This document shows, piece after piece, positions 15,952 to 37,048 of a DNA stretch of 38,801 bases (position 1 is its first letter; each line of letters starts with the position of its first letter). Origin of the DNA: Anaerolineales bacterium (GTDB lineage: Bacteria > Chloroflexota > Anaerolineae > Anaerolineales > UBA4823); the NCBI GenBank assembly GCA_020354045.1, contig CP070639.1, positions 88,284 through 127,084 on the forward strand, written 5' to 3'. Under the pieces are notes generated by a model. The model did no database searches. It was not told the DNA's origin and saw only the letters and a program-made list of their open reading frames with translations. The translations under genes were made by a program, and so were the position numbers.

Positions 15952-16827
15952 ATGATCCTCTGGAAAGACTACCATCTTGCCCATAGTATTGAGGATGCAT
16001 TAGAGACTCTCTGGAACGCCCCTGGACCTGCCAGGTTGATCGCTGGCGGCACTGATCTGTTGCTTGATCTGCAGCAGGGTCGCCACCCGCCGGTACACAC
16101 TCTGGTAGACGTGAGCGCAGTCCCAGAGATGACATCCATAGAGCTCAGGCGAGAAAAGTTATTTATTGGTGCGGCTGTACCCTTAAATCGCGTTGTCCTT
16201 TCCCCATTGGTTCAGGAACACGCAGAAGCCCTGGTGGAGGCTGCCGGCTTGATAGGTGGACCTCAGGTGCGCAATACGGCTACACTGGGTGGCAATGTGG
16301 CACATGCTTTACCAGCTGGAGATGGCACCATTGCGCTCCTGGCTTTGGGTGCTCAGGCTGAAATCGCGGGAGGGTCCGGTATATACCGATCCCCATTAGA
16401 AGATCTCTATCTGGGGCCAGGGCGCTCAAGATTGGCAACACAGGAAGAACTGTTAGTTGGTTTCTACCTTCCCATTCGATCCAAAAACGAAGGTTCAGCT
16501 TTTCAGCGAATTATGCGCCCTCAAGGTGTGGCGATCGCTATCCTAAACCTGGCAGCCTGGATAAGGAGACGGGGAGATGTCATCCTGGATGTGCGCCTTG
16601 CGATTGGTCCAGCCGGTCCAATTCCCAGGCGCAGCAACGAAGCCGAGCATGTTTTGCGCGGCAAAAAAATGAGTCCAGAAGTCCGTGAGAAGGCGGTGGG
16701 ATCGTTGTTAGCGGAAGCCAGCTTCCGTACCAGCCCACATCGGGCAACTGCAGAATACCGGAAATATATGGCTGGCGTATTATTGGAGAATGTTTTGGAG
16801 ACCGCCTGGCAGAGGTCGGCTTCTTGA
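15952..16827 (+). CDS. Molybdenum hydroxylase FAD-binding subunit
   Basis: A 291-residue FAD-binding PCMH-type subunit of the xanthine dehydrogenase family, passing electrons between the 2Fe-2S clusters and the acceptor. The first FAD loop is LIAGGTDLLLDL (residues 29-40). The second is QVRNTATLGGNVAHALPAGD (near residues 104-123), which binds the diphosphate. A C-terminal CO-dehydrogenase-flavoprotein-like domain ends the protein. It is followed after 18 bases by the fused 2Fe-2S/Mo subunit, its evident partner. A candidate structured leader precedes it. The substrate is not evident: the nearby ssnA-like deaminase suggests a purine or other N-heterocycle, but this is inference. Confidence 0.9.
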   Translation: MILWKDYHLAHSIEDALETLWNAPGPARLIAGGTDLLLDLQQGRHPPVHTLVDVSAVPEMTSIELRREKLFIGAAVPLNRVVLSPLVQEHAEALVEAAGLIGGPQVRNTATLGGNVAHALPAGDGTIALLALGAQAEIAGGSGIYRSPLEDLYLGPGRSRLATQEELLVGFYLPIRSKNEGSAFQRIMRPQGVAIAILNLAAWIRRRGDVILDVRLAIGPAGPIPRRSNEAEHVLRGKKMSPEVREKAVGSLLAEASFRTSPHRATAEYRKYMAGVLLENVLETAWQRSAS

Positions 16828-16845
16828 TATTGATGAGGAAACAGG

Positions 16846-19656
16846 ATGAGAATAACAGTTAATGGTGTCCAGAGGTCCATTGAAGTGCGGTTTGGTGAGA
16901 TGCTATCGGATTTATTACGGGAGCGCTTGGGGCTCACAGGTACCAAGATTGGCTGCAATGAGGCCGAGTGCGGGTCCTGTACCGTATTGGTGAGTGGCGA
17001 ACCAGTGCTGGCCTGTACCTATCCAGCTGGTAAAGCCGTGGGGAAAGAGGTGATAACAATCGAGGGATTAGCTAATGTTGAATCCCTTGATCAATCTCGG
17101 AAAACAGCACGACAAGTTGAGCTTCACCCCCTGCAACGCGCATTTATCACGCACGGAGCAGTCCAATGTGGGTTTTGTATTCCGGGTCAAATCGTGACTG
17201 CTTTTGCGCTTCTACAAAGCAATCCTGATCCAACTGAAGATGAGATTAAGTATGCTTTGAAGGATACTTTATGCAGGTGTGCTGGCTATCCATCGATCAT
17301 ACGTGCGATCCAGTCTGCAGCCAAGGCGATGCAATCCGATGCTGAAGAGATCAGTGAGCCGGAAATCCCCGGCATAACGCATGATTTTAGAGTGGTTGGC
17401 ACACAGCTAATTCGACCAGACGCAGTGGAAAAAGTTACTGGTAAAGCGTTATTTACCGATGATCTGAAATTCCCAGAGATGTTACATGCCCGGGTGAAAC
17501 GAGCGGGGGTGCCACATGCAATTGTGAAAAGTGTTAATGTTGAGGGGGCGCGTAGCCTGCCAGGTGTGGTGGCTGTCTTGACCGCTGAGGATATCCTGGG
17601 CGAGGTAAATCATGGCTTGGTAGTCTATGATTGGCCCACGTTGGTGGGAATTGGGGAACGAGTTCGTTATGTCGGTGATGCAATTGCTCTGGTGGCTGCG
17701 GAGACGAGGGAGATTGCCACCCAGGCAATAGAGCTAATCGAAGTCGATTATGAAGCGCAGCCTGTCATATCTCACCCGGTGCAATCTCGCCAACCTGATG
17801 TGCCTCAACTGCACCCTTCCGGGAACCTGTTGAAGCACATCAAGGTGCGCAAAGGGGATTTGGAGATAGGTTTCCAGGAAGCCGATTTGATCCTGGAGCA
17901 TACTTTTCACACAGCGATCACGGAACACGCCTTTATCGAGCCGGAGTGCAGCATTGCACGACCTCTGCCTGATGGGCGCATGGAAATCTATGTGGGTTCG
18001 CAGATCCCTTATTCCGACCGACACCAAGTAGCCCGCACGTTAAACTGGCCGGAGGAACGGATCCGGATCGTGGGCCAGCTCATGGGGGGCGGCTTCGGCG
18101 GCAAGGAAGATATTGCTGGTCAAACGCATGCCGCGCTACTGGCACTTGCCACTGGGAAAACGGTCAAGCTATTGTTTGATCGTCACGAGAGCCTGTTGGT
18201 ACATCCTAAACGCCATGCCACCCAGATCCAGGTGAAGATGGGTGCTAAATTAGATGGCCGCCTGACAGCTGTTGAGACAGAGTTATATGGTGATACGGGC
18301 GCTTATGCCTCCTTAGGCGAGAAGGTATTGACGCGAGCGACTACCCATTCCTCTGGTCCATATGAGGTACCTCATGCTCGCGCGGATTGCTATGCGATGT
18401 ACACAAATAATCCACCAGCTGGCGCTTTCCGTGGTTTTGGGGTCACTCAATCCGCCTTTGCTATCGAGTCAATGATGGACATGTTAGCTGAAAAACTGGG
18501 GATGGATCCCGTTGAATTACGCCGACTGAATGCTTTAAGGGTGGGTAGCGAGACGAATACCGGACAAGTACTGACGGAAAGTGTGGGTTTACTGGAGTGT
18601 ATGCAGAAAGTTGAGGATGAAATGAACCACCTGTCAGGTGGTCAGCCATTCACGCCAAAACGAGTGGAGGGTGCTCCACACCGGGTGCGGGCATGGGGAT
18701 TTGCCGCAGGATACAAAAACACTGGCTTGGGAGGGGGTGCACCGGATAAAGCTGCAGCTGAAGTTGAGTTATTTGCGGATGGCATGTTAGAGGTGAGGAC
18801 TTCCTCTGCGGAGTTGGGGCAGGGTCTGGTAACTGTCTTGCAGATGATCGTAGCGGAGGAGTTCAACCAGACGCCCACCAAAGTCCGGGTGGTGGTGATG
18901 GATACTGACCTGACGCCGGATGGAGGTCCTACTACCGCCTCGCGCCAGACATATGTGACCGGAAATGCTGCCAGACTGGCTGCGAACACCCTGCGCCAGG
19001 CAGCTGTAACTACATTGGCAGAAAAGTTTGACCAGCCACCTGATAAAATTCGTTTTGTGGAGGGACTGGTGCAAGTTAATGGACAGGTCGTTCCCCTGGG
19101 TGAGGTGGTTGGGGCGATGCAGGCGGAGGGTCGTGAACCGCGTGTTTTATACGAGTATTGGGCACCAGAAACCAAGCCATTAGGACAGGGTGGCGACATG
19201 CATTTTGCGTTTTCATTTGCAGCACAGGCAGCAGAGGTTGAAGTTGACACACGGACGGGTGAAGTGAGCGTGCTGAGGGTGATCGCTGCCAGCGACGCGG
19301 GGCAGGTGATCAACCCGTTAGGTTTCCAGGGCCAGGTTGAGGGTGGCGTTGTCATGGGCTTAGGCAATGCCCTGACTGAAAACTTTATTGTTGAGCAGGG
19401 GCAAGTGTTCACGGACAGGCTAGCGCGCTACCGGATGCCTTCCATCGTCCAGACACCTGAGATTATTTCGATTTTGGCATCGCATCCTACAAAGGATGGC
19501 CCTTATGGCGCAAAGGGAATCGGTGAACTGGTCAGCATACCCACTACACCAGCGATTACGAATGCTATCTATCATGCGGTGGGTGTGCGCATTGACAGGT
19601 TGCCGGTTGATCAGGAAGTGATCATCCAGCATTTGAAAGGGAAAGTAAAGCAATAA
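16846..19656 (+). CDS. Molybdenum hydroxylase, fused 2Fe-2S and Mo-cofactor subunits
   Basis: A 936-residue protein joining a 2Fe-2S subunit to a molybdopterin subunit of the xanthine dehydrogenase/aldehyde oxidase family. Plant-type cluster ligands are Cys37, Cys42, Cys45 and Cys57; second-cluster ligands are Cys108, Cys111, Cys143 and Cys145. After a short linker (about 160-180) the Mo part carries GGGFGGKED (414-422), AFRGFG (527-532) and the catalytic Glu894 in GAKGIGE. The AYRCSFR loop of aerobic CO dehydrogenase is absent, so it is not CoxL. FAD is supplied by the gene directly upstream. GAGGAAACAGG precedes the ATG. Likely reaction: hydroxylation of an aromatic N-heterocycle or aldehyde using water; substrate unknown. 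Confidence 0.92.
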   Translation: MRITVNGVQRSIEVRFGEMLSDLLRERLGLTGTKIGCNEAECGSCTVLVSGEPVLACTYPAGKAVGKEVITIEGLANVESLDQSRKTARQVELHPLQRAFITHGAVQCGFCIPGQIVTAFALLQSNPDPTEDEIKYALKDTLCRCAGYPSIIRAIQSAAKAMQSDAEEISEPEIPGITHDFRVVGTQLIRPDAVEKVTGKALFTDDLKFPEMLHARVKRAGVPHAIVKSVNVEGARSLPGVVAVLTAEDILGEVNHGLVVYDWPTLVGIGERVRYVGDAIALVAAETREIATQAIELIEVDYEAQPVISHPVQSRQPDVPQLHPSGNLLKHIKVRKGDLEIGFQEADLILEHTFHTAITEHAFIEPECSIARPLPDGRMEIYVGSQIPYSDRHQVARTLNWPEERIRIVGQLMGGGFGGKEDIAGQTHAALLALATGKTVKLLFDRHESLLVHPKRHATQIQVKMGAKLDGRLTAVETELYGDTGAYASLGEKVLTRATTHSSGPYEVPHARADCYAMYTNNPPAGAFRGFGVTQSAFAIESMMDMLAEKLGMDPVELRRLNALRVGSETNTGQVLTESVGLLECMQKVEDEMNHLSGGQPFTPKRVEGAPHRVRAWGFAAGYKNTGLGGGAPDKAAAEVELFADGMLEVRTSSAELGQGLVTVLQMIVAEEFNQTPTKVRVVVMDTDLTPDGGPTTASRQTYVTGNAARLAANTLRQAAVTTLAEKFDQPPDKIRFVEGLVQVNGQVVPLGEVVGAMQAEGREPRVLYEYWAPETKPLGQGGDMHFAFSFAAQAAEVEVDTRTGEVSVLRVIAASDAGQVINPLGFQGQVEGGVVMGLGNALTENFIVEQGQVFTDRLARYRMPSIVQTPEIISILASHPTKDGPYGAKGIGELVSIPTTPAITNAIYHAVGVRIDRLPVDQEVIIQHLKGKVKQ

Positions 19657-19732
19657 ATTGTGGGGTACGGTTCACCTGCAAGTCTAGTGATATGTACAGC
19701 GGTTAAGAGCCTAAGCTAACTGGATAACCTAT

Positions 19733-20362
19733 ATGACAGAATCGATAAACCCCCGCTGGTTTGATTGGGCACGTGAAATCCAGGCACTTTCGCAAACAGG
19801 CTACCACTACGCTGAGAACGAATATCAAAAAGAACGCTACCGGCGTTTGTCCGAGATTGCGGCCGAGATGATGAGTGAGTATTCTGGCAGCGACCTGGAT
19901 CAAATCCTCAACCTTTATCTCACCCAAAGTGGTTATGCCACACCGCGCGTGGATGTGCGCGGGGCTGTTTTTATGGAAGATAGGATACTCATGGTGCGCG
20001 AGCGACAAGATGGAGGCTGGACATTACCAGGTGGTTGGGCAGATGTGGGAGACGTACCTTCCCAGGCAGTGGAACGCGAAGTGCTTGAGGAGGCGGGATT
20101 TCAGGTTAAAGCGCAGCGGGTCATTGGTGTGTATGACGCCAACCGCACGGGTCCCCTCGAACTTTTTCATGCTTTTAAGGTTGTTTTTTTGTGTGAGCTG
20201 CTGGGTGGTGATGCTCGCCCTAGCATAGAGACTACTGACGTGGCTTTTTTCGACGCGCATGAACTCCCGGAGGTGTTATCTGGAGAACGGACAAAGCCGA
20301 AGCATCTAGAGGATGCATTCGCAGTCCTGCGAGATCCTAATTTACCCACTGTATTTGATTAG
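19733..20362 (+). CDS. Nudix hydrolase
   Basis: A 209-residue protein with an N-terminal helical domain (about 1-70, as in the YjhB-like/NUDT9-type subgroup with an extra N-terminal segment) and a Nudix domain. The Nudix box starts at Gly101 and ends REVLEEAGF at 115-123, with the metal-binding REVLEE intact. The first conserved Glu of the consensus (GX5E) is replaced by Asp107. Such enzymes cleave nucleoside diphosphates linked to another group, ADP-ribose among them. It follows the Mo hydroxylase by 76 bases and precedes a phosphatase by nine, so it is probably in the same transcript. The exact substrate is not inferable. Confidence 0.9.
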   Translation: MTESINPRWFDWAREIQALSQTGYHYAENEYQKERYRRLSEIAAEMMSEYSGSDLDQILNLYLTQSGYATPRVDVRGAVFMEDRILMVRERQDGGWTLPGGWADVGDVPSQAVEREVLEEAGFQVKAQRVIGVYDANRTGPLELFHAFKVVFLCELLGGDARPSIETTDVAFFDAHELPEVLSGERTKPKHLEDAFAVLRDPNLPTVFD

Positions 20363-20371
20363 GTTGTAGCT

Positions 20372-20869
20372 TTGACGACCAGGGAGTTTCGACGCAATAG
20401 TTTGACCGAGCTGCCTGTAAGCTTCGCTGGACGAATCTTTCGCAGCCCCATGCCTTTCCAAAGAGGTGATGAGGCAGGTGATTTATTCGAACAGATCAAG
20501 CAGCAAAATATCTCGGTAATCGTTTTGTTGGCTTCTGATCGAGAATGTTTGGAAAATAGCAGGCGCGATTTGCGCGCGTATTACACAAGTGAAGGGATAA
20601 AGGTGATATACCTGCCCATACCTGATTTTGGAGTGCCCGAGCCTGAGTCCCTGGATACCGCCCTCGCTGATACGATAGACTACTTGTGCGCAGGATCCAA
20701 TGTCCTGGTTCACTGCTTAGCAGGGATTGGAAGGACCGGCACATATTTAGCCTGTCTGGCGAAAAGAAGCCTGGGGATGAATGGGGATCAGGCGATCGGG
20801 TGGGTGCGGGAGGCTATTCCAGGAGCTTTAGAGACGAGCGAGCAGATTCGGCTTGTGCATGAGTTTTAA
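20372..20869 (+). CDS. Tyrosine/dual-specificity-type protein phosphatase
   Basis: A 165-residue protein with the cysteine-phosphatase loop HCLAGIGRTG (His114, Cys115, Arg121) and a likely general-acid Asp85 in IPDFGVPE, in the correct order and spacing for DSP/PTP enzymes. It could remove phosphate from proteins or from a small molecule such as a phosphoinositide or nucleotide. It starts with TTG nine bases after the Nudix stop and ends 17 bases before ssnA, so it lies within a compact plus-strand run. Its role beside a purine-type catabolic cluster is unknown. Confidence 0.85.
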   Translation: MTTREFRRNSLTELPVSFAGRIFRSPMPFQRGDEAGDLFEQIKQQNISVIVLLASDRECLENSRRDLRAYYTSEGIKVIYLPIPDFGVPEPESLDTALADTIDYLCAGSNVLVHCLAGIGRTGTYLACLAKRSLGMNGDQAIGWVREAIPGALETSEQIRLVHEF

Positions 20870-20886
20870 GACCAGGAGGCGAAAGA

Positions 20887-22236
20887 ATGCTGATTACAAA
20901 TGCGAATTTAATCACCTGGGGGGAGGAGAACAAAATTTTAATAGACCAAGCCATGCTAATTAAAGATGGAAAAATCGCCCAAATCGGCTCGAAGAAAGAG
21001 CTGGCAGCGCTTTATCCAGAGGTTGAACAGTTGGATGCGAGAGGCCAGTACGTGATGCCTGGGAATATTTGTGCACATACGCATTTTTATGGCGCCTACG
21101 CACGGGGATTAGCCATACCTGGCTCTGCCCCCAAGGATTTCCCGGAAATCCTGGAAAAACTCTGGTGGCCTTTGGACCGAGCCCTGGACGCGGACTCTGT
21201 ACGTGCTTCCGCTGATGTAATGCTGCTGGATGCTATCAAGCATGGCACAACCACATTGATAGACCATCATGCCTCCCCTAATGCAATTGAGGGCTCATTA
21301 GATATGATCTCTGATGCAGTCGATCAATCGGGATTGCGCGCAGTGCTGTGCTATGAGGTCACCGATCGCAATGGAATGCAAGGGGCGGAGACCGGGATAC
21401 AAGAAAATTTACGATTTATTCAAAGGAGCATGTCTGGTAAGGTGGCAGATGGCCGGGTGGCGGGTATGTTCGGGCTGCATGCCAGCCTGACACTTTCTGA
21501 GACATCCCTGGAAAAATGCCGATCCCTTGCTCCGGATGGAATTGGCTTTCATATTCATGTCGCCGAGCATGAGGCTGATGAGTATGACAGCCTGGCAAAA
21601 TCAGGGTTACGCGTGGTGGACAGGCTGCATAAGCACGGCATACTGGGACCGCGCAGTATTGTGGCCCATGCAGTACATGTGGATACCCAGGAAGTGAATT
21701 TACTGCTCGAAAGCGGCACATGGGTCACCCACCAGCCACGTTCCAATATGAACAACGGCGTGGGTGTTGCCCAGGTAGAATCTTTGTTACGCCTCGGTGT
21801 ACCGGTTTGTCTTGGCACAGATGGTTTCTCACACACTATGTGGGAGGAGTGGAAAACAGCTTATTTATTGCATAAAGTCTGGCACCGCGATCCAAGACGG
21901 ATGAATGGCTCAGATGTAGCTAAGATGGGTGCTGTAAACAACGCAGCACTAGCCGGGTCATTCTTTCCAGGAGCTCCATTAGGTGTCATCAAATCCGGTG
22001 CCCACGCCGATTTGATATTTGTGGACTACAAGCCCTATACTCCATTAACGCCCGGCAACCTGCCCTGGCATATCTTATTTGGGTTTCATGAGAGCATGGT
22101 CACCACTACGATGGTAGCTGGGAATGTACTCATGCGGGATCGGAGGGTTCTAACGATGGATGAGGAGGAGATCGTGGCGCGGGCGCAGGCGTTAGCGCCG
22201 GGTGTTTGGCAAAGATACCAGGATCAGTTTGAATAG
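20887..22236 (+). CDS. ssnA: SsnA-like aminohydrolase
   Basis: A 449-residue amidohydrolase-superfamily protein matching SsnA in layout and signature text: HTHFYGAYARGLAIPG, a DHHASPNAIEGSL segment and MFGLHASLTLS. Metal ligands are His64 and His66, His224, His261 and Asp312. Relatives deaminate guanine, other purines or triazines. In E. coli ssnA sits with ygfK, xdhD and ygfM in a predicted selenium-linked purine-type cluster. Here it lies near the first Mo hydroxylase, and a YgfM/XdhD-like pair occurs about 6 kb downstream. AGGAGG precedes the ATG. Family call is firm; true substrate is unproven even in E. coli. Confidence 0.88.
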   Translation: MLITNANLITWGEENKILIDQAMLIKDGKIAQIGSKKELAALYPEVEQLDARGQYVMPGNICAHTHFYGAYARGLAIPGSAPKDFPEILEKLWWPLDRALDADSVRASADVMLLDAIKHGTTTLIDHHASPNAIEGSLDMISDAVDQSGLRAVLCYEVTDRNGMQGAETGIQENLRFIQRSMSGKVADGRVAGMFGLHASLTLSETSLEKCRSLAPDGIGFHIHVAEHEADEYDSLAKSGLRVVDRLHKHGILGPRSIVAHAVHVDTQEVNLLLESGTWVTHQPRSNMNNGVGVAQVESLLRLGVPVCLGTDGFSHTMWEEWKTAYLLHKVWHRDPRRMNGSDVAKMGAVNNAALAGSFFPGAPLGVIKSGAHADLIFVDYKPYTPLTPGNLPWHILFGFHESMVTTTMVAGNVLMRDRRVLTMDEEEIVARAQALAPGVWQRYQDQFE

Positions 22237-22277
22237 AAGCGTAGAGCATATATAAGAAATTATATTTGGAGAGTGAA

Positions 22278-22943
22278 ATGGCAGATAAGCTACCGACAAT
22301 AGCAATCCTGGGGGGGACGGGGAAGGAGGGGCCGGGCTTAGCAATGCGCTGGGCGGTATTGGGATATCCAATTCTGATTGGTTCGCGGCAAACTGAGAAA
22401 GCCCAGGAAACTGCTTCCAAGTTGAATGAACAGCTCGGTTTAACCAGTATTCAGGGGATGCAAAACAACAATGCAGCCCAGCACGCGGATATCAGTGTGC
22501 TTACTGTGGTTTTTAGTGCGCATGAGAGTGCCGTTCTCAGCCTGAAAGAGGCTCTGCAAGGCAAGATCCTGGTGGATACGACAGCCCGAGTGGATTTTCG
22601 AGACCCAAAACCACCAAAACACCCCGCTGCAGCACGGCATGCACAGAATGTGCTTGGACCCGGGGTGAAAGTGGTAGCAGCATTTCAAACTGTACCCTTT
22701 CATATCCTTCGGAAAAATCTGGGTGAGCAACTGGACACTGATGTGCTGGTGTGTTCTGATGACCTGGAAGCAGCCAAAATGGTCATGAAACTTTCTGAGG
22801 CAGCGGGTATGCCGGCTTATTATGCTGGCAACCTGGACAATGCGGTGGTCGTGGAAGGATTGACAGCGATCATGATCAGTATGAACAGCCATTACAAGGT
22901 GAAAACCGCCAGTATTGGGATTCATGGGATCAACCAGGAATGA
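22278..22943 (+). CDS. npdG: F420-dependent NADP oxidoreductase
   Basis: A 221-residue Rossmann protein transferring hydride between reduced F420 and NADP. The N-terminal nucleotide-binding motif is IAILGGTGKEGPGLAMR, followed by ILIGSR at the end of the second strand, the pattern of Fno/NpdG enzymes. VVAAFQTVPFHIL and the closing Asn-rich helix also fit. The ATG at 22278 is chosen because GGAG stands six bases before it; a TTG at 22266 would include the ribosome binding site. It links the upstream catabolic genes to the F420 synthesis genes that begin about 160 bases later. Confidence 0.93.
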   Translation: MADKLPTIAILGGTGKEGPGLAMRWAVLGYPILIGSRQTEKAQETASKLNEQLGLTSIQGMQNNNAAQHADISVLTVVFSAHESAVLSLKEALQGKILVDTTARVDFRDPKPPKHPAAARHAQNVLGPGVKVVAAFQTVPFHILRKNLGEQLDTDVLVCSDDLEAAKMVMKLSEAAGMPAYYAGNLDNAVVVEGLTAIMISMNSHYKVKTASIGIHGINQE

Positions 22944-23011: not shown

Positions 23012-23103
23012 AGGGTGGTTTTAGGAGATTCTTTGATCGTTGCTCTCCCTCAGAATAAAAGCCTGATTGAATTGGTTGTGTCCAGTCATATTTGTTGGGA
23101 ATT

Positions 23104-23868
23104 ATGCTAACTATCACTCCGATTGCAGGTATTCCATTGATCCAGCCAGGTGATGACCTGGTCGAGATCATTCTGGATGCCCTAGAACATAATAATCTAA
23201 CCCTGCTTGATGGTGACATCCTGGTGATCACATCCAAGATTATTTCCAAAGCAGAGGGGCGACAGGTAAACCTGGCAACTGTCCAGCCTTCTCAAGAAGC
23301 CCTGCAGCTTGCCGGATGTGTGGAAAAAGATGCAAGGCTGGTAGAACTGATATTAGGCGAATCCAACCAGGTGCTGCGTAGTCGACCGGGGACAATCATT
23401 GTGGAGCATCGCCACGGGTTTGTGTGCGCCAATGCTGGCATTGACCATTCCAATGTCGCTGGGGAAGGAGATCAGGCGGAGGAGTGGGTACTGCTTTTAC
23501 CCGCCGATCCTGAGGCTTCGGCTCACCAACTGCGGCAACGCCTGGAGGCGCATACCAACGTTCGGATCGGGATCATGATCATTGACTCGCACGGGCGTGC
23601 CTGGCGAATTGGAACCGTTGGCATGGCGATCGGTTTAGCGGGGATACCAGGAGTCGTAGATCTGCGCGGCAGGCCAGATCTCTTTGGGTACAATCTGCGC
23701 ATTACACAGATTGGGGCAGCAGATGAGCTGGCAGCTGGGGCTTCATTAGTGATGGGACAGGCAGCTGAAGGTACGCCGGTTGTGCATGTGCGCGGTTTCC
23801 CCTACCCCTTAAGGGAAGGTTCACTTGCCGAGCTGTTTCGCCCACGCCAGGAAGATCTATTTCGTTAA
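23104..23868 (+). CDS. cofE: Coenzyme F420-0:L-glutamate ligase
   Basis: A 254-residue CofE protein adding gamma-linked glutamates to F420-0 with GTP. Family marks: GIPLIQPGDDL near the N-terminus, GDILVITSKIISKAEGR (about 36-52), GFVCANAGIDHSN (about 105-117) and the GLAGIPGVVDLRGRPD stretch. The usual 250-residue length means it lacks the fused nitroreductase domain of actinobacterial FbiB. That domain appears instead in the next gene. The ATG at 23104 is taken as start; TTG codons at 23092 and 23095 are alternatives. The ribosome binding site is weak. Confidence 0.93.
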   Translation: MLTITPIAGIPLIQPGDDLVEIILDALEHNNLTLLDGDILVITSKIISKAEGRQVNLATVQPSQEALQLAGCVEKDARLVELILGESNQVLRSRPGTIIVEHRHGFVCANAGIDHSNVAGEGDQAEEWVLLLPADPEASAHQLRQRLEAHTNVRIGIMIIDSHGRAWRIGTVGMAIGLAGIPGVVDLRGRPDLFGYNLRITQIGAADELAAGASLVMGQAAEGTPVVHVRGFPYPLREGSLAELFRPRQEDLFR

Positions 23869-23913: not shown

Positions 23914-24864
23914 TTGCCAAATACGATGGAACATGAATTTTGGAACCAACTGGATGATCTCATTATGCACACCCAGGTAATCATCGATCGACCTGCGGGA
24001 CAGGGACATCCTAGTTATCCCGAAATGGTATATCCAGTAGATTATGGATATCTCATCCAAACTACCTCAAGCGATGGTGAGGGGATTGACTTGTTCAGGG
24101 GATCTGATTCGGGTCAATTACTCAACGGATTGGTGTGTACACTAGACCTTCAAAAGCAGGAGTCCGAAATTAAGCTGCTGGTTGGCTGCACAGCAGAAGA
24201 GCAGAACAAGGTGGTACAGTTTTTAAGAAACCACGGCATGCCTGCGCTGCTGATCAAACGCGATGAGAATCCGCTCTCATGGTTGCTCTCACGCCGGTCA
24301 GTACGTAGATTTACGAAAAAAAATGTGCCAAGTGTTTTGGTTGAAAAAATTCTGGAGGCTGCAATTCAAGCACCTTCAGCCCACAACCGCCAACCTGCTC
24401 GTTTTGTGGTTATTCAGAAGATAGAAACCAAGCGTCGATTAGCCGAGGCGATGGGGGGTGAATTTCTGCAGGACTTACTTCAGGACGGCGTACCAGAAGC
24501 AGAAGCCAAAGGAATAGTGGGGCGTTCCCGGCAGCGCATTACGGAGGCACCGACAGTTATCCTGGTGTGCCTGGAGTCAGGGAGTCTGGACGAGTATCCA
24601 GACCAGAAGCGCCAGGTGGCTGAATATAAAATGGCAGTGCAAGGTGTTGCCATGTCAGCTGAAAACTTGCTGCTGGCGGCCCATACCCTCGGTCTGGGTG
24701 CAGTTTGGCTGTGTGCACCCTTATTTACACCCGAAACAGTTGGTAAAACCTTGTGTTTACCCGATAGCTGGGAGCCCCAGGGATTAATCTTGTTAGGTTA
24801 TCCGGAGAAGTACCCGAAAGGACGCCCACGCCGATCAATTGCAGAAGTGACGCGCTTCGATTGA
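23914..24864 (+). CDS. Fusion of a pyrophosphatase-like domain and an FbiB-type nitroreductase domain
   Basis: A 316-residue two-domain protein. Residues 5-116 resemble small family-I inorganic-pyrophosphatase-like proteins: VIIDRPAGQGHPSYP, YPVDYGYL (40-47) and SDGEGIDLFRG (53-63), which corresponds to a degenerate GDGDPLD site. The later Asp/Lys catalytic cluster of classical pyrophosphatase is not obvious, so activity is uncertain. Residues 125-316 are an FMN-binding nitroreductase domain (RRSVRRFTKKNV, then APSAHNRQPARFVVI). In FbiB the matching domain reduces dehydro-F420-0. Its place between cofE and cofD supports that role here. The start is a TTG with a weak ribosome binding site, or the ATG at 23926. 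I know of no described protein with this domain pair. Confidence 0.82.
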   Translation: MPNTMEHEFWNQLDDLIMHTQVIIDRPAGQGHPSYPEMVYPVDYGYLIQTTSSDGEGIDLFRGSDSGQLLNGLVCTLDLQKQESEIKLLVGCTAEEQNKVVQFLRNHGMPALLIKRDENPLSWLLSRRSVRRFTKKNVPSVLVEKILEAAIQAPSAHNRQPARFVVIQKIETKRRLAEAMGGEFLQDLLQDGVPEAEAKGIVGRSRQRITEAPTVILVCLESGSLDEYPDQKRQVAEYKMAVQGVAMSAENLLLAAHTLGLGAVWLCAPLFTPETVGKTLCLPDSWEPQGLILLGYPEKYPKGRPRRSIAEVTRFD

Positions 24865-24901: not shown

Positions 24902-25849
24902 ATGGATAAGATTGTGGCACTTGCTGGAGGTGTAGGAGGAGCAAAGCTGGTACATGGCTTAAGTCAATGTCTGACACCTGAGCAACTGGTGACCATTGTG
25001 AATATAGGAGATGATTTTAATCATCTAGGTCTCAGAATCTGTCCTGATCTGGATACAGTTTGCTATACCTTGGCGGGAAAAGCCAACCTGGCGACAGGCT
25101 GGGGTAGGGCAGGAGAAACCTGGAATGCATTGGAGAGTCTGGGCGAGATTGGTGGCCCAACGTGGTTTCGTTTGGGAGACCTGGATTTAGGCACGCATCT
25201 TGAGCGCACGCGGCGCCTCAGGTCTGGTGAACCGCTAAGTAAAATAACGAAGGATTTCTGCTGCTCTTGGGAAGTAGAATTTACAGTTTTGCCAGCCTCT
25301 GATGACAACGTACCCACTTGGGTGTATACTGAAGAGGGTGAGTTGCCTTTTCAAGAGTATTTCGTGCATCGCCAGTGCCTACCAAAGGTGTCTGGATTTA
25401 GATTTGCAGATGTGGAGGCCGCCAAACCTGCGCCGGGGGTGTTGGAGGCGTTGGGGGATGCCAGACTGGTTATTATATGCCCATCTAATCCGTGGGTAAG
25501 TATTGGGCCAATCCTGGAGATACCAGGAATTCAAGAGGCGGTTGCCTGCCGGACTGTCATTGCTGTTTCGCCAATTATCGGTGGCGAAGCGGTTAAGGGT
25601 CCAGCTGCCAAGATGTACAAAGAGTTGGGCATCCAGCCTTCTGCCCAGGCTGTTGCGCAACAGTACGGCAGCTTACTGACAGGATATGTGATTGATCTTG
25701 TGGATAAGGGGCAAGAAGAGGCATTACGCCACGCTGGCCTTGAGGTCCTGACGGTTGACACGCTGATGAAAACTAACGCGGACCGTCACAGGTTAGCCAA
25801 ACAGGTGTTGGATTTTGGAGAACAGGTATTTGATCGTAAAAACAAATGA
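24902..25849 (+). CDS. cofD: 2-phospho-L-lactate (or PEP) transferase for F420 synthesis
   Basis: A 315-residue CofD/FbiA enzyme joining the phospho-lactyl or phosphoenolpyruvyl moiety to FO to give F420-0 or dehydro-F420-0. Diagnostic motifs: LAGGVGGAKLVHGL (7-20), NIGDDFNHLGLRICPDLDT, RLGDLDLGTHL, and PSNPWVSIGPIL followed by VSPIIGGEAVKGPAAKM. Full length. It lies 37 bases after the nitroreductase fusion and 93 bases before cofC. The FO synthase genes (cofG/cofH or fbiC) are not in the window. Confidence 0.96.
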   Translation: MDKIVALAGGVGGAKLVHGLSQCLTPEQLVTIVNIGDDFNHLGLRICPDLDTVCYTLAGKANLATGWGRAGETWNALESLGEIGGPTWFRLGDLDLGTHLERTRRLRSGEPLSKITKDFCCSWEVEFTVLPASDDNVPTWVYTEEGELPFQEYFVHRQCLPKVSGFRFADVEAAKPAPGVLEALGDARLVIICPSNPWVSIGPILEIPGIQEAVACRTVIAVSPIIGGEAVKGPAAKMYKELGIQPSAQAVAQQYGSLLTGYVIDLVDKGQEEALRHAGLEVLTVDTLMKTNADRHRLAKQVLDFGEQVFDRKNK

Positions 25850-25942: not shown

Positions 25943-26557
25943 GTGACACTTTGGGCGATAGTGCCAGTAAAACCATTAGGGCGAGGTAAATCACGTCTGT
26001 CAGGTGTGTTATCTCATGAACAGCGGACAGACTTAAATCGCCATTTACTATTGCATACAGTCGATACTTTGACCGCAATACCAGATATTGAACATGTGCT
26101 GGTTGTCAGCCGTGATCAGGAAGCTCTGGCGTTAGCCAGGGAACATGGCGCCAGGACTATTCAAGAAAATGGATCATCGCATCTAAATCTGGCACTGGCT
26201 CGTGCCACAATCATTGCAAAGAGTTATATTACACGTGGTGTGCTGATCGTCCCCGCGGATTTGCCATTAATCACAAGCGAGGATGTGCGTGCCATGCTGG
26301 ATCTGGCCAAACCACCACCCGTTGTCGTGGTAGCACCTGATCACCGCCAGCAAGGAACGAATGCATTACTGGTTTGCCCAACTGGATTGATTGAATATGA
26401 ATTTGGCCCTGGCTCGTTTCAACGGCACTGCGAGCGAGCAAAACTGGCTGGGGCGCGTCTGGAAATCTGCAAGCTGCCCTCGCTGGCATTGGATGTTGAC
26501 CTGCCAGAGGATTTAGAATTGGTTGAGGAAGAACTGGGTGCAGAATTTGGTGTTTAA
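25943..26557 (+). CDS. cofC: 2-phospho-L-lactate/PEP guanylyltransferase
   Basis: A 204-residue nucleotidyltransferase (CofC/FbiD) that activates 2-phospholactate or phosphoenolpyruvate with GTP, releasing pyrophosphate. WAIVPVKPLGRGKSRLSGVL is the nucleotide-binding opening. PADLPLITSEDV and a PDHRQQGTNALL segment are further family marks. The start is GTG at 25943 with AAAGGAAA upstream. It supplies the substrate of CofD. Whether it prefers PEP or 2-phospholactate cannot be read from sequence, but the nitroreductase domain nearby would be needed only on the PEP (dehydro-F420) route. Confidence 0.93.
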   Translation: MTLWAIVPVKPLGRGKSRLSGVLSHEQRTDLNRHLLLHTVDTLTAIPDIEHVLVVSRDQEALALAREHGARTIQENGSSHLNLALARATIIAKSYITRGVLIVPADLPLITSEDVRAMLDLAKPPPVVVVAPDHRQQGTNALLVCPTGLIEYEFGPGSFQRHCERAKLAGARLEICKLPSLALDVDLPEDLELVEEELGAEFGV

Positions 26558-26682: not shown

Positions 26683-27681
26683 ATGACTGAAAGAGTTGCT
26701 CTCTATTTACAAGACGCGCATGATTTACGAGATGGTCTGGATTACGTGCGCTATGCGGAACAACGCGGGTTTGAGGCCGTATGGCAGGCCGAATCTCGCC
26801 TTGTACGTGATGCCATCGTACCCATGGCTGCCTACGCAGCGGTCACCGAGCGACTAAAAGTAGGTTCCGGGGTGATCAACAACTGGACCCGCAATATTGG
26901 TCTGTTAGCGGCGACCTTCCTCACCCTGGACGACCTGGCACCTGACAGGATCATCTGTGGAATCGGTGCGTGGTGGGACCCGCTGGCACGCAATGTGGGT
27001 ATAACGCGGAGAAAACCGCTTACCGCCATGCGCGAGACCGTGGAGGTTCTGCGCCGTTTGCTTAATATGGAGCGTGTCACTTTTCATGGCGAATTTCACC
27101 AGGTTGATGGGATCGAATTGGATGTAGTCCACGGACGACGGGAACCACGCAATGTACCGATTATGATCGGGGCAACCGGTGACAAGATGATGGAGATGAC
27201 GGGAGAGATTGCTGATGGAGTGGTGTTGAATTACTGTGTGCCACCCGAATATAATGACCGGGCAATGGAGCTCCTGGAGGCTGGCGCCCGTAAGGCTGGT
27301 CGTAACCTGGAGGATATAGACAGACCGCAACTGGTGGTTTGTTCGGTTGATAATGATCGGGAGCGGGCCATCGATACTACACGCGAACTGCTCACTCAAT
27401 ACCTGGCCCAGCAACCACACATTGCCAAGGCTTCGGGTGTTTCCGATGCGGTGGTGGAAAAAATTCAATCCATCCTTGGTTGGCCTGCCACACATGAGCA
27501 GATTCGAAAAGCCAAGCATCTGGTTCCGGATGAATTGATCCATAAAATTACTGCATCAGGAACACCAGAGGAGGCGCGTGCCAAGGTAGAAGAATACCGC
27601 AAGCGCGGCTGCACCTGCCCGATTTTATATCCCGTAGGTGGGGATGTCAAAATGCTCATTGATACATTTAAGCAGGTGTAG
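26683..27681 (+). CDS. LLM-class F420-dependent oxidoreductase
   Basis: A 332-residue luciferase-like (TIM-barrel) flavin/F420 enzyme resembling methylenetetrahydromethanopterin reductase. The N-terminal part has [21 protein letters not shown], a barrel strand followed by the F420-binding region. [15 protein letters not shown] and [14 protein letters not shown] continue the pattern. [23 protein letters not shown] is the typical phosphate-binding strand. Substrate is unknown; the name Mer-like does not imply methanogenesis. It directly follows cofC with its own candidate promoter and a good ribosome binding site (GGAGGAG). The genomic position makes F420 dependence likely. Confidence 0.9.
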
Positions 27682-28208: not shown

Positions 28209-28961
28209 ATGATCATTGAATACCAGCGTCCGAAAACTATAGAGGCAGCCCTTAAACTCTTACACCGCGCAGAACCTGTGAGCTTGCCTATGGGTGGCGG
28301 TACCGTATTGAACCAGCCCACCGATGAGGAATACGCGGTAGTTGATTTGCAAGAACTGGGTCTTGACGCTCTACAGGTGCGCGGTAATCACTTAATCATA
28401 GGAGCCACGCTGAAATTACAACGCATGCTGGAGGATGAGGCAACACCACAGGCGTTGCGGGTGGTGATTCAGCGAGAAAGCACGTACAATCTACGCCAGA
28501 TGGCAAGTGTGGCTGGTACGCTGGTATCTGCAGACGGTCGCTCCTCTTTCGCGACAGCTATGCTGGCACTAGACGCCAGTATGATCTGGTTGCCTGGTGA
28601 GGAGCCAATACGCCTTGGTGAGTTTTACCCTACTAGGAAGGGGAGTCGACGCGGCAAGCTAGTTGCCCGGGTGGAAATTCCAACCCATGTAAAATTTTCT
28701 TACCAGGATGTGGCGCGCACACCGGCGGATTTACCAATTGTAAGTGCTGCGCTGGCTGTCTGGCCTTCAGGGAGGACCAGACTGGCACTGGGGGGCTTCG
28801 GAAAAGCGCCGATCCTGGCTATGGATGGACCTGAAACGCACGGATTGGAGAGTGCTGCCCAGTCTGCCTATGCCCAGGCAGGGGATGAATGGGCGAGTGC
28901 TGAATACAGGCAAGAAATAGCAGCCATCCTGGCAAGGCGTTGTTTGGAGGCGTTGAAATGA
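28209..28961 (+). CDS. Molybdenum hydroxylase FAD-binding subunit, YgfM-like
   Basis: A 250-residue FAD-binding PCMH-type subunit, shorter than the one at 15.9 kb. It opens MIIEYQRPKTIEAALKLL, with SLPMGGGTVLNQPT as first FAD loop and NLRQMASVAGTLVSADGRS as the second. Length and layout resemble E. coli YgfM. The probable partner, an XdhD-like 2Fe-2S/Mo subunit, begins at 30904, separated by a minus-strand copper-chaperone gene and a DNA methyltransferase. The pairing is inferred from the E. coli ygfM-xdhD association. Confidence 0.87.
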   Translation: MIIEYQRPKTIEAALKLLHRAEPVSLPMGGGTVLNQPTDEEYAVVDLQELGLDALQVRGNHLIIGATLKLQRMLEDEATPQALRVVIQRESTYNLRQMASVAGTLVSADGRSSFATAMLALDASMIWLPGEEPIRLGEFYPTRKGSRRGKLVARVEIPTHVKFSYQDVARTPADLPIVSAALAVWPSGRTRLALGGFGKAPILAMDGPETHGLESAAQSAYAQAGDEWASAEYRQEIAAILARRCLEALK

Positions 28962-29080
28962 TGGTTGTCGAAGGAATCAGCCTTAAACTGGGGTGCGATG
29001 ATGGGGAATCTATTCAGGTGCGCGCACATCGGCTTCGACAAGAACCTCTCCAGATTTCTCAAATTGTAAGCGCAGGATGA
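28958..29080 (+). CDS. Possible 40-residue small ORF
   Basis: An ATG overlapping the end of the FAD subunit gene has a good ribosome binding site (GGAGG, seven bases upstream) and opens a 40-codon frame ending at 29080. The peptide (starting MMVVEGISLKLGCDDG) matches nothing I know. It overlaps the 3' end of the opposite-strand copper-chaperone gene by about 70 bases. It may be a remnant or chance. Confidence 0.15.
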   Translation: MMVVEGISLKLGCDDGESIQVRAHRLRQEPLQISQIVSAG

Positions 29081-29525
29081 TCGTATCGCCGGGGTTTAGA
29101 TTTTGTTTGAGGTTGACCAGCATAATGTGAAAACCACCAGGTTTTAGTTCGATGTTCCCTTGCGCGGGGACCTCGATTTGCGTGACCATTCTCATGGTGG
29201 TAATGTCGTTTTCGGTCTGGCTGAGGTGCAATTCTCCTGCTTCGGCAACATCGCATTCCACTCCGAGCAGCGTATCTGCTTGTCTGCTATGGTTATGGAT
29301 GAGCATATATGCTGCGCTGTTCATGCTTGTTGTTTGAGTATCCGCCATTTCTCCCGCAGGCTGGCCTTCATGGGAGTGACCTGGCGTGGAAGTCGTGGAG
29401 ACAGACCGAACCCAGGGTGATTCAATGGAAATCGGTGTGGTTTCCATGACTGTCTTTCCACAAGTAGATGTAACCAAAGCAATGCAGACGACTATAATCA
29501 ACCAGATTAAAGAGCGGATGTCCAT
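29010..29525 (-). CDS. PCuAC-type copper chaperone, probable lipoprotein
   Basis: A protein of about 171 residues with an N-terminal hydrophobic segment ending VTSTCGK, then a cupredoxin-like PCuAC domain. Copper-ligand positions are seen as ELHLSQTENDITTMRM (His and Met) and GGFHIML (His and Met), the usual HX10MX21HXM-like spacing. PCuAC delivers Cu(I) to the CuA/CuB sites of cytochrome oxidase outside the membrane. The lipobox has Thr rather than Ala/Gly/Ser at -1, so lipidation is uncertain. A His/Met-containing insert (about residues 48-68) is unusual. The ATG at 29525 is preferred to a GTG at 29531 because TAGGG lies upstream of it. It is transcribed against its neighbours. Confidence 0.85.
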   Translation of the reverse strand: MDIRSLIWLIIVVCIALVTSTCGKTVMETTPISIESPWVRSVSTTSTPGHSHEGQPAGEMADTQTTSMNSAAYMLIHNHSRQADTLLGVECDVAEAGELHLSQTENDITTMRMVTQIEVPAQGNIELKPGGFHIMLVNLKQNLNPGDTIILRLQFEKSGEVLVEADVRAPE

Positions 29526-29707
29526 GCGCACCCTAGCGAGTTAAATAAATAGTTATTTCTCGGGAGGAGCTATTAAGCATTATCTATTATTGATCGAAAT
29601 GTCGAACAAAATAATTATAATACATGTGAATAGCGACACAGACGAAGGGGTTGCTGGAATCCAATGGTAGAGCGAGGATTTCCAGGCAGTTCAGGTCTCT
29701 CCACAAA

Positions 29708-30876
<1,169 letters not shown>

Positions 30877-30903
30877 TTAGCGATTAAAAAGTAGGTATAA
30901 ATC

Positions 30904-33900
30904 ATGAGGATACAACTTTGGGTCAATGAGAACCAGCATGATCTTGAGACTCCTGTGAGTGAGAGACTGCTGGCTAGCCTGCGTTCCCTGGGTTATTTTG
31001 GTGTTAAGCAAGGTTGCGAGACGGGTGAGTGTGGAGCCTGTACAGTTTTACTCAATGGCAAGCCTGTCAATTCTTGCGTAATGTTGACCAGCCAGGCAAT
31101 TGGACAGCGGGTACAAACGATCGAGTCGGTGGGTCAGCATCCTGAACAGGGCTGGAAGAGCTCCCCGGGCTTGCATGCTCTGCAACAATCCTTTGTTGAA
31201 ACGGGGGCCATCCAGTGTGGATTCTGCACTCCAGCACAAATCCTGGCAGCCAAGGAGTTGATAGAAAGGCATCCAAGCCCAACCGAGGAACAGGTAAGAG
31301 AGGCACTTTCAGGTGCGCTCTGCCGCTGCACAGGTTACCTGAAGCCAGTACAAGCCGTGCTGCGTGCTGCAGCGGTGATGAGGGGCGAACAGGTAGAGCC
31401 GGTCGGAGGTGAGACCCCGTCCATACCGGCACCCCCTGATTGGCTCCCGGAAGAAGGCTACTCTCCAGAGCAGTATGGCAAAATCGGTGAGGAGGCTGCT
31501 ATAACAACCCCAGAAACCCTGGTGATCAGTGCGCGTGTAATGCCACAAATCGCGCAGGCTCCCCAAGCAGAAAGCTGGAGAAGTGTGGGCAAGCCTGAAC
31601 CAAAGGTGGATGCAGTAAAGCTAGTGCAGGGCAAGCCAGCCTTTGCAGCGGATATGGAGGCGCGCGGCATGCTGTACGCGAAAGTGCTGCACAGCCCTGT
31701 GGCACATGCCTGGATAAAGCATATTGATACGAGTCAGGCAAAAGCCTTGCCGGGTGTAAAAGCAGTGCTTACCTATCAAGATATCCCCCGGGTCATCTTT
31801 TCTACTGCGGGACAATCAGATCCCATCCCTGGACCATTAGACACTTTTTCGTTGGATAAAAAAGTGCGCTTTGTGGGTGACAGGGTAGCAATGGTTGCGG
31901 CAGAAAGCGAGGAGATCGCAGAAGAAGCACTCAAATTGATTGAGGTTGAATATGAGCCTCTGCCCGCGATATTAGATATGGCCGAAGCCCTGAAACCGGA
32001 TGCACCGCTGCTGCACGACGAACCAGAATATGTGAATTTTGCAGATTCTGACCCAAGCCGCAACCTAGCGGCAGAAATTCGCATCGATATCGGGGATGTT
32101 GAAAAAGGATTTGCTGAAGCTGATCATATTTTTGAGGCTGAATACGAGGTGCCTAAAGTACAGCAAGCCCACATTGAACCGCATGTGGTCCTGACTTACT
32201 GGGATGAAGATGACCGTCTGGTCATTCGCACTAGCACGCAGGTCCCGTTTCATGTCCGCCGGATTATCGCTCCGGTTCTGGGTTTGCCTGTCAAACGGAT
32301 ACGGGTGGTGAAGCCGCGTATCGGTGGTGGTTTCGGCGGCAAGCAAGAGGTGCTTATCGAGGATGTCGCGGCTCACCTGACAATTGCAACGGGCAGACCT
32401 GTACTGTACCAGTATACGCGTGAAGAGGAATTTACCGCTTCACGCTCGCGGCATCCCATGCGCATTCGCATGAAAACTGGTGTGAAAGCCGATGGGACAC
32501 TGACAGCCAATGCCATGTACGCGTTAAGTGATACTGGGGCGTATGGCTGCCATGCACTGACCGTGACAGGCAATACAGGTCATAAGTCTATGGCTCTCTA
32601 TGTGGGTGATGGGCGGTACAGGGAAAATCCAAATATCCGCTTCTACGCGGATGTGGTATATACCAATCGCCCCCCGTCTGGGGCATACCGGGGTTATGGT
32701 GTGCCGCAAGGTTTCTGGCCTTTGGAACGACACATGGAGAAAATTGCCCGCCAGCTGAAGCTTGACCCGTTAGAATTTCGCTTGAAGAACGCCTTACGAG
32801 CCGGGGAGTTGCACCCTTTCAGCACTGCCTGGAGCGAAGGACGAGAACCGCGACCGGAGACGATTGAAACCTGTGGATTAGAAGAATGTGCCCGCCAGGG
32901 AAAAGCCGCAGTGGGGTGGGATCAGAAATATGGGCAGGTGGAATGGCACCAAGTGCCTGGCAAACCACATCTCAGGCGAGGGATCGGAGCGGCGCTGGTG
33001 ATGCAGGGTACGGCGATCCCCTACCTGGACATGGGCGGTGCCAGCCTGAAGATGAATGATGACGGCTCGTTCAACCTGCTGGTTGGGGCAACAGACCTGG
33101 GTACCGGCTCGGATACTGTGCTGGCGCAGATGGCTGCGGAGGTGCTGGGTGTACCGGTAGAGGATATCATCACCTATTCCTCTGATACAGATTTCACTCC
33201 GTTTGACAAAGGAGCTTATGCTTCCAGCACCACCTACATCTCGGGCACGGCGGTGGTCAAAGCCGCAGAACAGGTGGCGGATAGGATCAAGATCAGAGCC
33301 GCACGCATGTTTAATCAGCAATCAGTACATCAAGAATTCAAACCCGTGGAAATCCAGCTAGCCAAAGGAAATGCCATTGCACCAGATGGGCGAATTTTGT
33401 CCCTGGCAGAAATTGCGCACAATGCCCTACATCACGAGGACCAGGAACAGATCATGGCGGTAGCATCATACAAATCACCTGTTTCTCCGCCGCCGTTTGC
33501 AGCCCAATTTGCCCAGGTTACCGTCGATATTGAAACTGGACAGGTGATTGTCGACAAGCTGGTCATGGCGGTGGATTCTGGCATCATCGTCAACCCGATC
33601 ACAGCCTCGGGACAAATTGAAGGTGGCATGACCCAAGCTTTGGGTTATGCCGTGTCAGAAGAAATGGTATATGATGAACATGGACGGGCACGTGAACGCA
33701 GCTTCCGGGATTATCACATTTTCCAGGCGCATGAAATGCCCACCTTAGAAACGATATTCGTGGAAACATTTGAGCCATCGCATCCGTTTGGCGTCAAAGC
33801 AGTAGCAGAGATTCCCATGGATGGTGTGGCACCAGCAGTAGGCAATGCAGTCCTGGATGCGTGCGGTGTCCAGATGGACAAAAATCCGATTACGCCAGAA

Positions 33901-33936
33901 AAAGTCTGGCAGGCGCTACGCAGCCAGAAATCTTGA
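30904..33936 (+). CDS. Molybdenum hydroxylase, fused 2Fe-2S and Mo-cofactor subunits, XdhD-like
   Basis: A 1010-residue fusion like that at 16.8 kb but of a different subgroup. 2Fe-2S ligands: Cys38, Cys43, Cys46, Cys58 and Cys105, Cys108, Cys140, Cys142. After a linker of about 70 residues the Mo part has KKVRFVGDRVAMVAAESEEI, GGGFGGKQE (474-482), AYRGYG (594-599), DKGAYASSTTYISG, and the probable catalytic Glu969 in GVKAVAEIPMDG. These stretches recall E. coli XdhD more than xanthine dehydrogenase XdhA. FAD is presumably provided by the YgfM-like protein upstream. XdhD is a predicted selenium-dependent hydroxylase; selenium use here is not shown, and no selD or yqeB is in view. Confidence 0.92.
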   Translation: MRIQLWVNENQHDLETPVSERLLASLRSLGYFGVKQGCETGECGACTVLLNGKPVNSCVMLTSQAIGQRVQTIESVGQHPEQGWKSSPGLHALQQSFVETGAIQCGFCTPAQILAAKELIERHPSPTEEQVREALSGALCRCTGYLKPVQAVLRAAAVMRGEQVEPVGGETPSIPAPPDWLPEEGYSPEQYGKIGEEAAITTPETLVISARVMPQIAQAPQAESWRSVGKPEPKVDAVKLVQGKPAFAADMEARGMLYAKVLHSPVAHAWIKHIDTSQAKALPGVKAVLTYQDIPRVIFSTAGQSDPIPGPLDTFSLDKKVRFVGDRVAMVAAESEEIAEEALKLIEVEYEPLPAILDMAEALKPDAPLLHDEPEYVNFADSDPSRNLAAEIRIDIGDVEKGFAEADHIFEAEYEVPKVQQAHIEPHVVLTYWDEDDRLVIRTSTQVPFHVRRIIAPVLGLPVKRIRVVKPRIGGGFGGKQEVLIEDVAAHLTIATGRPVLYQYTREEEFTASRSRHPMRIRMKTGVKADGTLTANAMYALSDTGAYGCHALTVTGNTGHKSMALYVGDGRYRENPNIRFYADVVYTNRPPSGAYRGYGVPQGFWPLERHMEKIARQLKLDPLEFRLKNALRAGELHPFSTAWSEGREPRPETIETCGLEECARQGKAAVGWDQKYGQVEWHQVPGKPHLRRGIGAALVMQGTAIPYLDMGGASLKMNDDGSFNLLVGATDLGTGSDTVLAQMAAEVLGVPVEDIITYSSDTDFTPFDKGAYASSTTYISGTAVVKAAEQVADRIKIRAARMFNQQSVHQEFKPVEIQLAKGNAIAPDGRILSLAEIAHNALHHEDQEQIMAVASYKSPVSPPPFAAQFAQVTVDIETGQVIVDKLVMAVDSGIIVNPITASGQIEGGMTQALGYAVSEEMVYDEHGRARERSFRDYHIFQAHEMPTLETIFVETFEPSHPFGVKAVAEIPMDGVAPAVGNAVLDACGVQMDKNPITPEKVWQALRSQKS

Positions 33937-33961
33937 TTGGGTGTGTGAATCTTAATAAGTT

Positions 33962-34900
33962 ATGGAACAAATATTTAGCTGGATTAAACAAGTATTAGGC
34001 TTTAGCCCGGAAGTAACGCAAAATTTAATCACCACGCTTGCTACTGTCACTGTTTTATGGATAGTGCACCGGATTACCCTTAAAACCTTCATTGAGCGCA
34101 TTTCCGATGCGGGGGTGCGCTACCAATGGCAAAAAGCAAGCGGATATGTGTTTTTTCTCCTCGGGGTCCTAGTTATTGGGCGGATCTGGTTTGAGGGGGT
34201 GCAGACAGTCGCCACTTTTTTAGGGTTGTTGTCTGCCGGGCTGGCTATAGCACTCAAAGACCCAATCGCAAACCTGTTTGCCTGGGCGTTCATCCTGTGG
34301 CGGCGACCTTTTGAAGTCGGTGATCGCATCGAATTGGACGGTAGTGCGGGCGATGTAATTGATTTGCGTATTTTCCAATTTACACTGATGGAAATTAGAA
34401 ATTGGGTGGATGCTGACCAGAGCACTGGGCGCATCCTGCATATTCCGAATGGAAAAGTATTTACCTCCACCTTGGCAAACTTCACCAAAGGCTCGGATTA
34501 CATCTGGAATGAAATACCCATCTTGATCACTTTTGAGAGCGATTGGGAAAAAGCCAAGCAAATTCTACAGGAGATTGCCAACCAGCATGCTCAATCTCTC
34601 CAACAAAACCTCGAGAAGAGCTTTGCGGAAGCCAGCAAACGTTTCCTGATTAAATACGATAAGTTAACTCCTATTGTTTATACGAGTGTGAAGAACAGCG
34701 GTGTGTTGCTCACGATACGTTATCTTTGTGATCCCCGCCAACGGCGCACCAGCAACCAGGAAGTGTGGGAGAGTGTGCTGCGCGCCTTCGCCCAACATGC
34801 GGACATTGACCTGGCTTACCCAACCCAACGATTTTATCTGGACGATACTAGCAAGCGTGACTTTAATGGCCATCTCCAGACCTCGCAAGGAAATGGTTGA
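33962..34900 (+). CDS. MscS-family mechanosensitive channel
   Basis: A 312-residue inner-membrane channel with three predicted helices (about 20-38, 60-80, 84-113). The pore helix reads FLGLLSAGLAIALKDPIANL, with the Gly/Ala packing pattern of MscS, followed by RRPFEVGDRIEL, the start of the beta domain. HIPNGKVFTSTLANF fits the PN-type linker of the family. It opens on membrane tension and lets ions and small solutes out. It begins 25 bases after the Mo hydroxylase. Its stop codon overlaps the next start as TGATG, so its translation is coupled to the pyrophosphatase. Confidence 0.92.
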   Translation: MEQIFSWIKQVLGFSPEVTQNLITTLATVTVLWIVHRITLKTFIERISDAGVRYQWQKASGYVFFLLGVLVIGRIWFEGVQTVATFLGLLSAGLAIALKDPIANLFAWAFILWRRPFEVGDRIELDGSAGDVIDLRIFQFTLMEIRNWVDADQSTGRILHIPNGKVFTSTLANFTKGSDYIWNEIPILITFESDWEKAKQILQEIANQHAQSLQQNLEKSFAEASKRFLIKYDKLTPIVYTSVKNSGVLLTIRYLCDPRQRRTSNQEVWESVLRAFAQHADIDLAYPTQRFYLDDTSKRDFNGHLQTSQGNG

Positions 34901-36249: not shown

Positions 36250-36251
36250 AC

Positions 36252-37040: not shown

Positions 37041-37048
37041 GAGCATAT

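Follow-up and report, generated by a model that had tools for sequence, protein, structure and literature searches.

Why should a short pyrophosphatase (PPase)-like domain be joined to a nitroreductase in the middle of an F420 biosynthesis operon? The window (the whole stretch of 38,801 nucleotides analysed here) carries, in this order, npdG, cofE, the fusion gene, cofD, cofC and an LLM-class oxidoreductase gene, with a dedicated PPase gene as context:

22266-22943, + strand: npdG/fno, NADPH:F420 reductase (TIGR01915 above cut-off)
23092-23868, + strand: cofE, F420-0:L-glutamate ligase, stand-alone (TIGR01916 above cut-off)
23914-24864, + strand: fusion gene, PPase-like N-domain and FbiE-type nitroreductase C-domain (316 aa, TTG start)
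23929-24267, + strand: N-domain, short family-I pyrophosphatase-like (residues 6-118)
24286-24861, + strand: C-domain, FMN nitroreductase of the FbiB C-terminal/FbiE type (residues 125-316)
24902-25849, + strand: cofD, 2-phospholactate/enolpyruvate transferase (TIGR01819 above cut-off)
25943-26557, + strand: cofC, guanylyltransferase (TIGR03552 above cut-off)
26683-27681, + strand: LLM-class oxidoreductase, probably F420-dependent (profile matches)
34897-36249, + strand: CBS-domain Mn-dependent family-II inorganic pyrophosphatase, a dedicated PPase (context gene)

The fusion ORF is one uninterrupted frame of 316 codons encoding a single two-domain protein. An earlier note on this DNA had described a two-domain ORF between cofE and cofD, which the open frame and the profile-identified neighbours confirm. 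The ATG at codon 5 (23926) is as good a candidate start as the TTG, and no clear ribosome-binding site was found to choose between them. The opposite strand holds no long frame and many stops, and repeats around the locus are at chance level. The F420 operon is flanked (15952-22236 and 28209-38503) by xanthine-dehydrogenase-type molybdenum hydroxylase genes together with genes for an XdhC maturation factor and an SsnA-type aminohydrolase, the latter above cut-off; the aminohydrolase gene, npdG and cofE remain linked in many relatives.

The nitroreductase domain

Pfam Nitroreductase (PF00881) matches residues 125-296 of the fusion protein (E 8e-32). The best curated model for the C-domain is NCBIfam FbiB_CTERM (E 1e-39), and the full-length FbiB model matches at E 2.5e-38, both under their own cut-offs. 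The TIGR03553 score of 136 bits did not reach the curated cut-off of 249.55 bits; since the stand-alone nitroreductases of F420 clusters likewise fall under this cut-off, the model seems to have been built on FbiB itself. The best PDB sequence match was the C-domain of Mycobacterium tuberculosis FbiB (E 4e-28), and a Foldseek search with the AlphaFold model of the full-length fusion protein (pLDDT 88.2, pTM 0.67) returned the same FbiB C-terminal domain for all of the top seven matches, at 34-35% identity. P289, R337 and M372 of FbiB have been modelled around dehydro-F420-0 (PMC6450877). R337 and M372 align with R204 and M240 of the fusion protein and P289 aligns with A156, so that the fusion protein retains two of these three contacts. 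The C-domain is also encoded together with cofC, cofD and cofE. In the Chloroflexota bacterium Thermomicrobium roseum the dehydro-F420 reductase is FbiE, a stand-alone nitroreductase (PMC8498797). On the FbiB-like fold, the conservation of R204 and M240 and the T. roseum precedent, we read the C-domain as FbiE, probably an FMN-dependent dehydro-F420-0 reductase, a reaction assigned from fold, residues and synteny. The proposal in the earlier note that this half replaces the FbiB C-terminus thus gains support from profiles, PDB and structure matches and residue alignment.

The fusion protein resembles both known types in part. Like FbiE of T. roseum (PMC8498797), it is a Chloroflexota nitroreductase with a separate CofE and the same inferred reaction, but FbiE has no PPase-like domain. 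With mycobacterial FbiB (PMC6450877) it shares the C-domain fold, the R337 and M372 equivalents and the presence of a second fused domain, whereas the N-terminal partner in FbiB is CofE rather than a PPase-like domain and the two C-domains are about 34% identical.

The pyrophosphatase-like domain

Pfam PF00719 matches residues 34-63 of the N-domain below threshold (E 0.0022; 18.3 bits vs the gathering score of 23.5 bits). A profile built from the N-domain and its relatives, including two short relatives, matched PDB pyrophosphatases at E 1.3e-5. The AlphaFold prediction of the N-domain was made from 23 aligned sequences (pLDDT 91.1, pTM 0.84), and all 50 PDB matches listed for this model are family-I pyrophosphatases, with a best E of 2.8e-4 and TM scores (normalised to the query) of 0.40-0.61. 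The structure-prediction check suggested along with the pyrophosphatase-like reading of this domain thus came out in its favour, and the fold match together with the profile match excludes chance similarity. We concluded that the N-domain, as modelled, has a family-I PPase fold whose site has been partly remodelled.

The core motif common to the N-domain and PPases is YP..YG...T...DG..ID. N-domain residues Y40, Y44, D54, E56 and D59 correspond to Y51, Y55, D65, D67 and D70 of E. coli PPase, and E85 and K87 are placed on D102 and K104 via related short proteins; these correspondences were taken from PDB searches. The PPase metal ligands D65, D70 and D102 thus become D54, D59 and E85, a conservative change at the last position, where the pairing again runs via the short relatives. 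At the D67 position the window protein has Glu and most relatives have Gly, Ala or Ser, and the invariant D25-R26 pair can be aligned alternatively to E20 or to D42-R43. In E. coli PPase we take K29, R43, Y141 and K142 to be phosphate-binding and D67 to be the general base. The N-domain does not supply the PPase phosphate-binding residues (K29 and those of the C-terminal part) or the D67 general base. Compared with E. coli Ppa (PF00719; 175 residues), the N-domain (about 115 residues) shares the fold and the Y51, Y55, D65 and D70 equivalents, with likely equivalents of D102 (as Glu) and K104, but the hairpin of K29 and E31 is absent, and so is the C-terminal third. In a set of 80 sequences drawn from several phyla, D25, R26, H32, D43, Y44, D54, D59, D78, E85 and K87 are near-invariant, and Y40 is also classed as conserved. 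The window protein keeps the near-invariant residues and departs at one conserved position, 83, where D is replaced by E.

Gene orders in relatives and a probable route to the fusion

The comparison set consisted of 60 relatives of the window's genome, mostly draft or metagenome genomes. Within the GTDB family of the window, 24 genomes have the N-domain, and wherever their contigs allow it to be seen it follows cofE immediately or at a short distance. Fifteen of these genomes (nine genera) have it fused to the nitroreductase, and in the other nine a separate gene encodes it. Elsewhere in the order, all five genomes with an N-domain have it inside the F420 cluster; strong matches from the class but from outside the order never lie within such a cluster.

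Gene orders among these relatives differ in a graded manner. Six loci (L123, L146, L204, L205, L209 and L211) carry separate genes in the order cofE, N-domain, FDOR, nitroreductase and cofD, the FDOR being of the TIGR03618 family, and L032 has the same separate set plus an extra gene. At L196 the FDOR has been lost, and the N-domain and nitroreductase genes are adjacent and unfused. A second independent fusion at this locus (a 299-aa frame) was considered and rejected: a stop closes the N-domain frame, and the nitroreductase has a gene of its own. Genus g14 keeps the N-domain and the FDOR, with no FbiB-like nitroreductase found at E 1e-15. At L028, L029, L030, L034 and L035 a PPOX/FDOR-B gene (TIGR03618) lies between the N-domain gene and cofD in a cluster without nitroreductase. 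Possibly the TIGR03618 protein of nitroreductase-less clusters takes over the reduction of dehydro-F420; otherwise F420 could stay unreduced there. At L093, L094, L095, L097, L098 and L110 cofE adjoins cofD with no N-domain, FDOR or nitroreductase gene between them, and the genomes of the first five of these loci gave no FbiB-like nitroreductase at E 1e-15. Many F420 clusters of the order with cofC have no N-domain. At L018 (genome G035) three in-frame stops make the N-domain gene a pseudogene, next to an intact FDOR gene and an intact cofD.

In a tree of N-domains the F420-cluster copies group together (3 label changes vs a shuffled mean of 27); the window's own N-domain falls outside the main F420 group, a placement that is weakly supported. 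We concluded that a single Chloroflexota order took up the N-domain into its F420 operon, at first as a gene of its own. Since all-separate, FDOR-less unfused (L196) and fused forms coexist, FDOR loss followed by fusion is the simplest route, an order of events inferred from extant gene orders and not from a dated tree.

Selection on degenerate N-domains

In genus g19 the equivalents of Y55, D65, D102 and K104 are lost in five out of five genomes and the domain is retained. The omega values of these degenerate N-domains were 0.09-0.12, vs 0.04-0.11 for the nitroreductase domain and cofE, estimates made with dS near saturation. An omega of about 0.1 after loss of the catalytic residues points to purifying selection and favours a retained binding or structural role in g19. 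Most other fused genera, including that of the window, keep nearly all of the catalytic residues.

The N-domain family beyond F420 clusters

The N-domain is also common as a stand-alone protein in Clostridia, Alistipes, Treponema, Rhizobium, Dictyobacter and others. This stand-alone family was sampled by one peptide pattern, which found 236 encoding places, of which 80 were kept. The short proteins of Clostridia, Alistipes, Treponema and Dictyobacter consist of the same domain (matched segments 42-58% identical) and share its invariant residues, but they differ in being single-domain as a rule and in occurring mostly in bacteria without cofD. Our literature search returned no function for them. 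Among the tested genomes that carry the family beyond F420 clusters, 19 of 27 lack cofD, and this occurrence rules out an F420-specific N-domain. The earlier note had named splitting of the domains without any F420 link as evidence against its reading, and here the relatives point both ways: within the order the split N-domain stays in the F420 cluster, whereas in most other bacteria it has no F420 link.

Outside F420 clusters, the commonest same-strand immediate neighbours are Nudix hydrolases (8/69, a count inflated by related Clostridia that are not all independent), followed by phosphorylases and Ham1. Control genes from the same loci (n = 84) had no family above 2/84 and no Nudix among the commonest. 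In some Clostridia (L113, L118, L121 and L167) the PPase-like domain is fused behind TrmK (a tRNA methyltransferase) and/or a GNAT acetyltransferase.

Possible roles of the N-domain

The reading that we favour on balance combines an FbiE-type reductase with a recruited diphosphate-handling N-domain. In most lineages this domain would be catalytic, and in one it would serve for binding or as a scaffold. Its source would be a widespread family of stand-alone proteins, short, metal-dependent and diphosphate-handling, with the family-I PPase fold, whose gene would have entered the F420 operon in a single Chloroflexota order. Once the FDOR gene in between was lost, the N-domain gene would have come to lie beside the reductase gene, with fusion as the outcome. 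From the metal-site residues kept in the window protein we infer that the N-domain binds, and probably hydrolyses, a small phosphoanhydride near the pathway, which may be PPi released by CofC, a nucleotide or EPPG, which is unstable; alternatively, it may hold such a phosphoanhydride group for the reductase. In genus g19 the domain would persist as a non-catalytic partner. A more specific version, put forward tentatively and with less than even confidence, makes the N-domain an accessory component of F420 maturation in this order, which handles PPi or EPPG at the CofC/CofD/FbiE step, is fused to FbiE, has become non-catalytic in one genus and works in hosts that possibly use imported Fo.

The earlier note had suggested that an N-domain binding or hydrolysing pyrophosphate or a diphosphate intermediate may pull the CofC and CofD steps. 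As a true pyrophosphatase it would destroy the PPi released by CofC and so pull formation of EPPG and dehydro-F420-0. The PPase fold, the metal-site residues kept in most F420-linked copies, the position beside cofE, cofD and cofC and the failure to find a canonical family-I PPase in the window's genome are all consistent with this idea. Against it stand the CBS-type family-II PPase of the window (34897-36249), an H+-PPase also encoded in the genome, the partly missing canonical PPi site, and the many cofC-containing clusters that do without the domain or carry a dead one (the G035 pseudogene, g19). The two other PPases also rule out the N-domain as the only PPase of the cell. The fold part of the suggestion holds up; the pull mechanism is possible but not favoured, given the other PPases and the domain-less clusters, and we consider a true PPi-removing pyrophosphatase unlikely.

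The family could instead be a general house-cleaning hydrolase of damaged nucleotides or nucleoside diphosphates, in which case it would simply have travelled along with a gene next door and been fused to it, with no function in F420 synthesis. Its spread through bacteria without cofD, the Nudix, phosphorylase and Ham1 neighbours that the control genes do not reproduce, and the additional fusions to TrmK and GNAT domains all point this way, and we regard it as a minority possibility of some weight. It fits less well with an N-domain that within the order is always in an F420 cluster and that, once fused, outlives its active site under purifying selection, and the Nudix neighbours come partly from related Clostridia. 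That survival in g19 would be expected if the fused domain were mainly structural and served the reductase or CofE/CofD as a module for folding, dimer formation or docking; the near-complete catalytic residues of most other fused genera, the window's included, argue against a mainly structural part, which we think rather doubtful.

Fo synthase genes in the order

A side finding concerns the source of Fo. Of 61 genomes of the order (the window's genome, G000, and relatives G001-G060), 54 carry cofD, whereas cofG gave no match above cut-off in any of the 61, the two weak hits being at E 9e-12 and 1e-9. cofH was absent from six out of six genomes tested, with positive archaeal controls; both absences come from one search tool and mostly draft genomes. 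One possible explanation is that throughout the order the F420 pathway has no Fo synthase of its own and relies on Fo uptake; another is a synthase missed by these models. No account of Anaerolineae lacking an Fo synthase was found in a search of mainly open-access papers.

Novelty and meaning

The same kind of search, again of mainly open-access papers, found no description of a PPase-like/nitroreductase fusion, in agreement with the earlier note, which knew of no precedent. The architecture is real, conserved, made of known parts and apparently undescribed. It gives the dehydro-F420-0 reductase a second fusion partner besides the CofE of FbiB, and the surviving intermediates show how the fusion arose. 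The known-pathway context provides a handle on a widespread PPase-like family that is recognised by weak similarity only. If the N-domain acts in the pathway, F420 maturation would have a step or control point beyond the current scheme.
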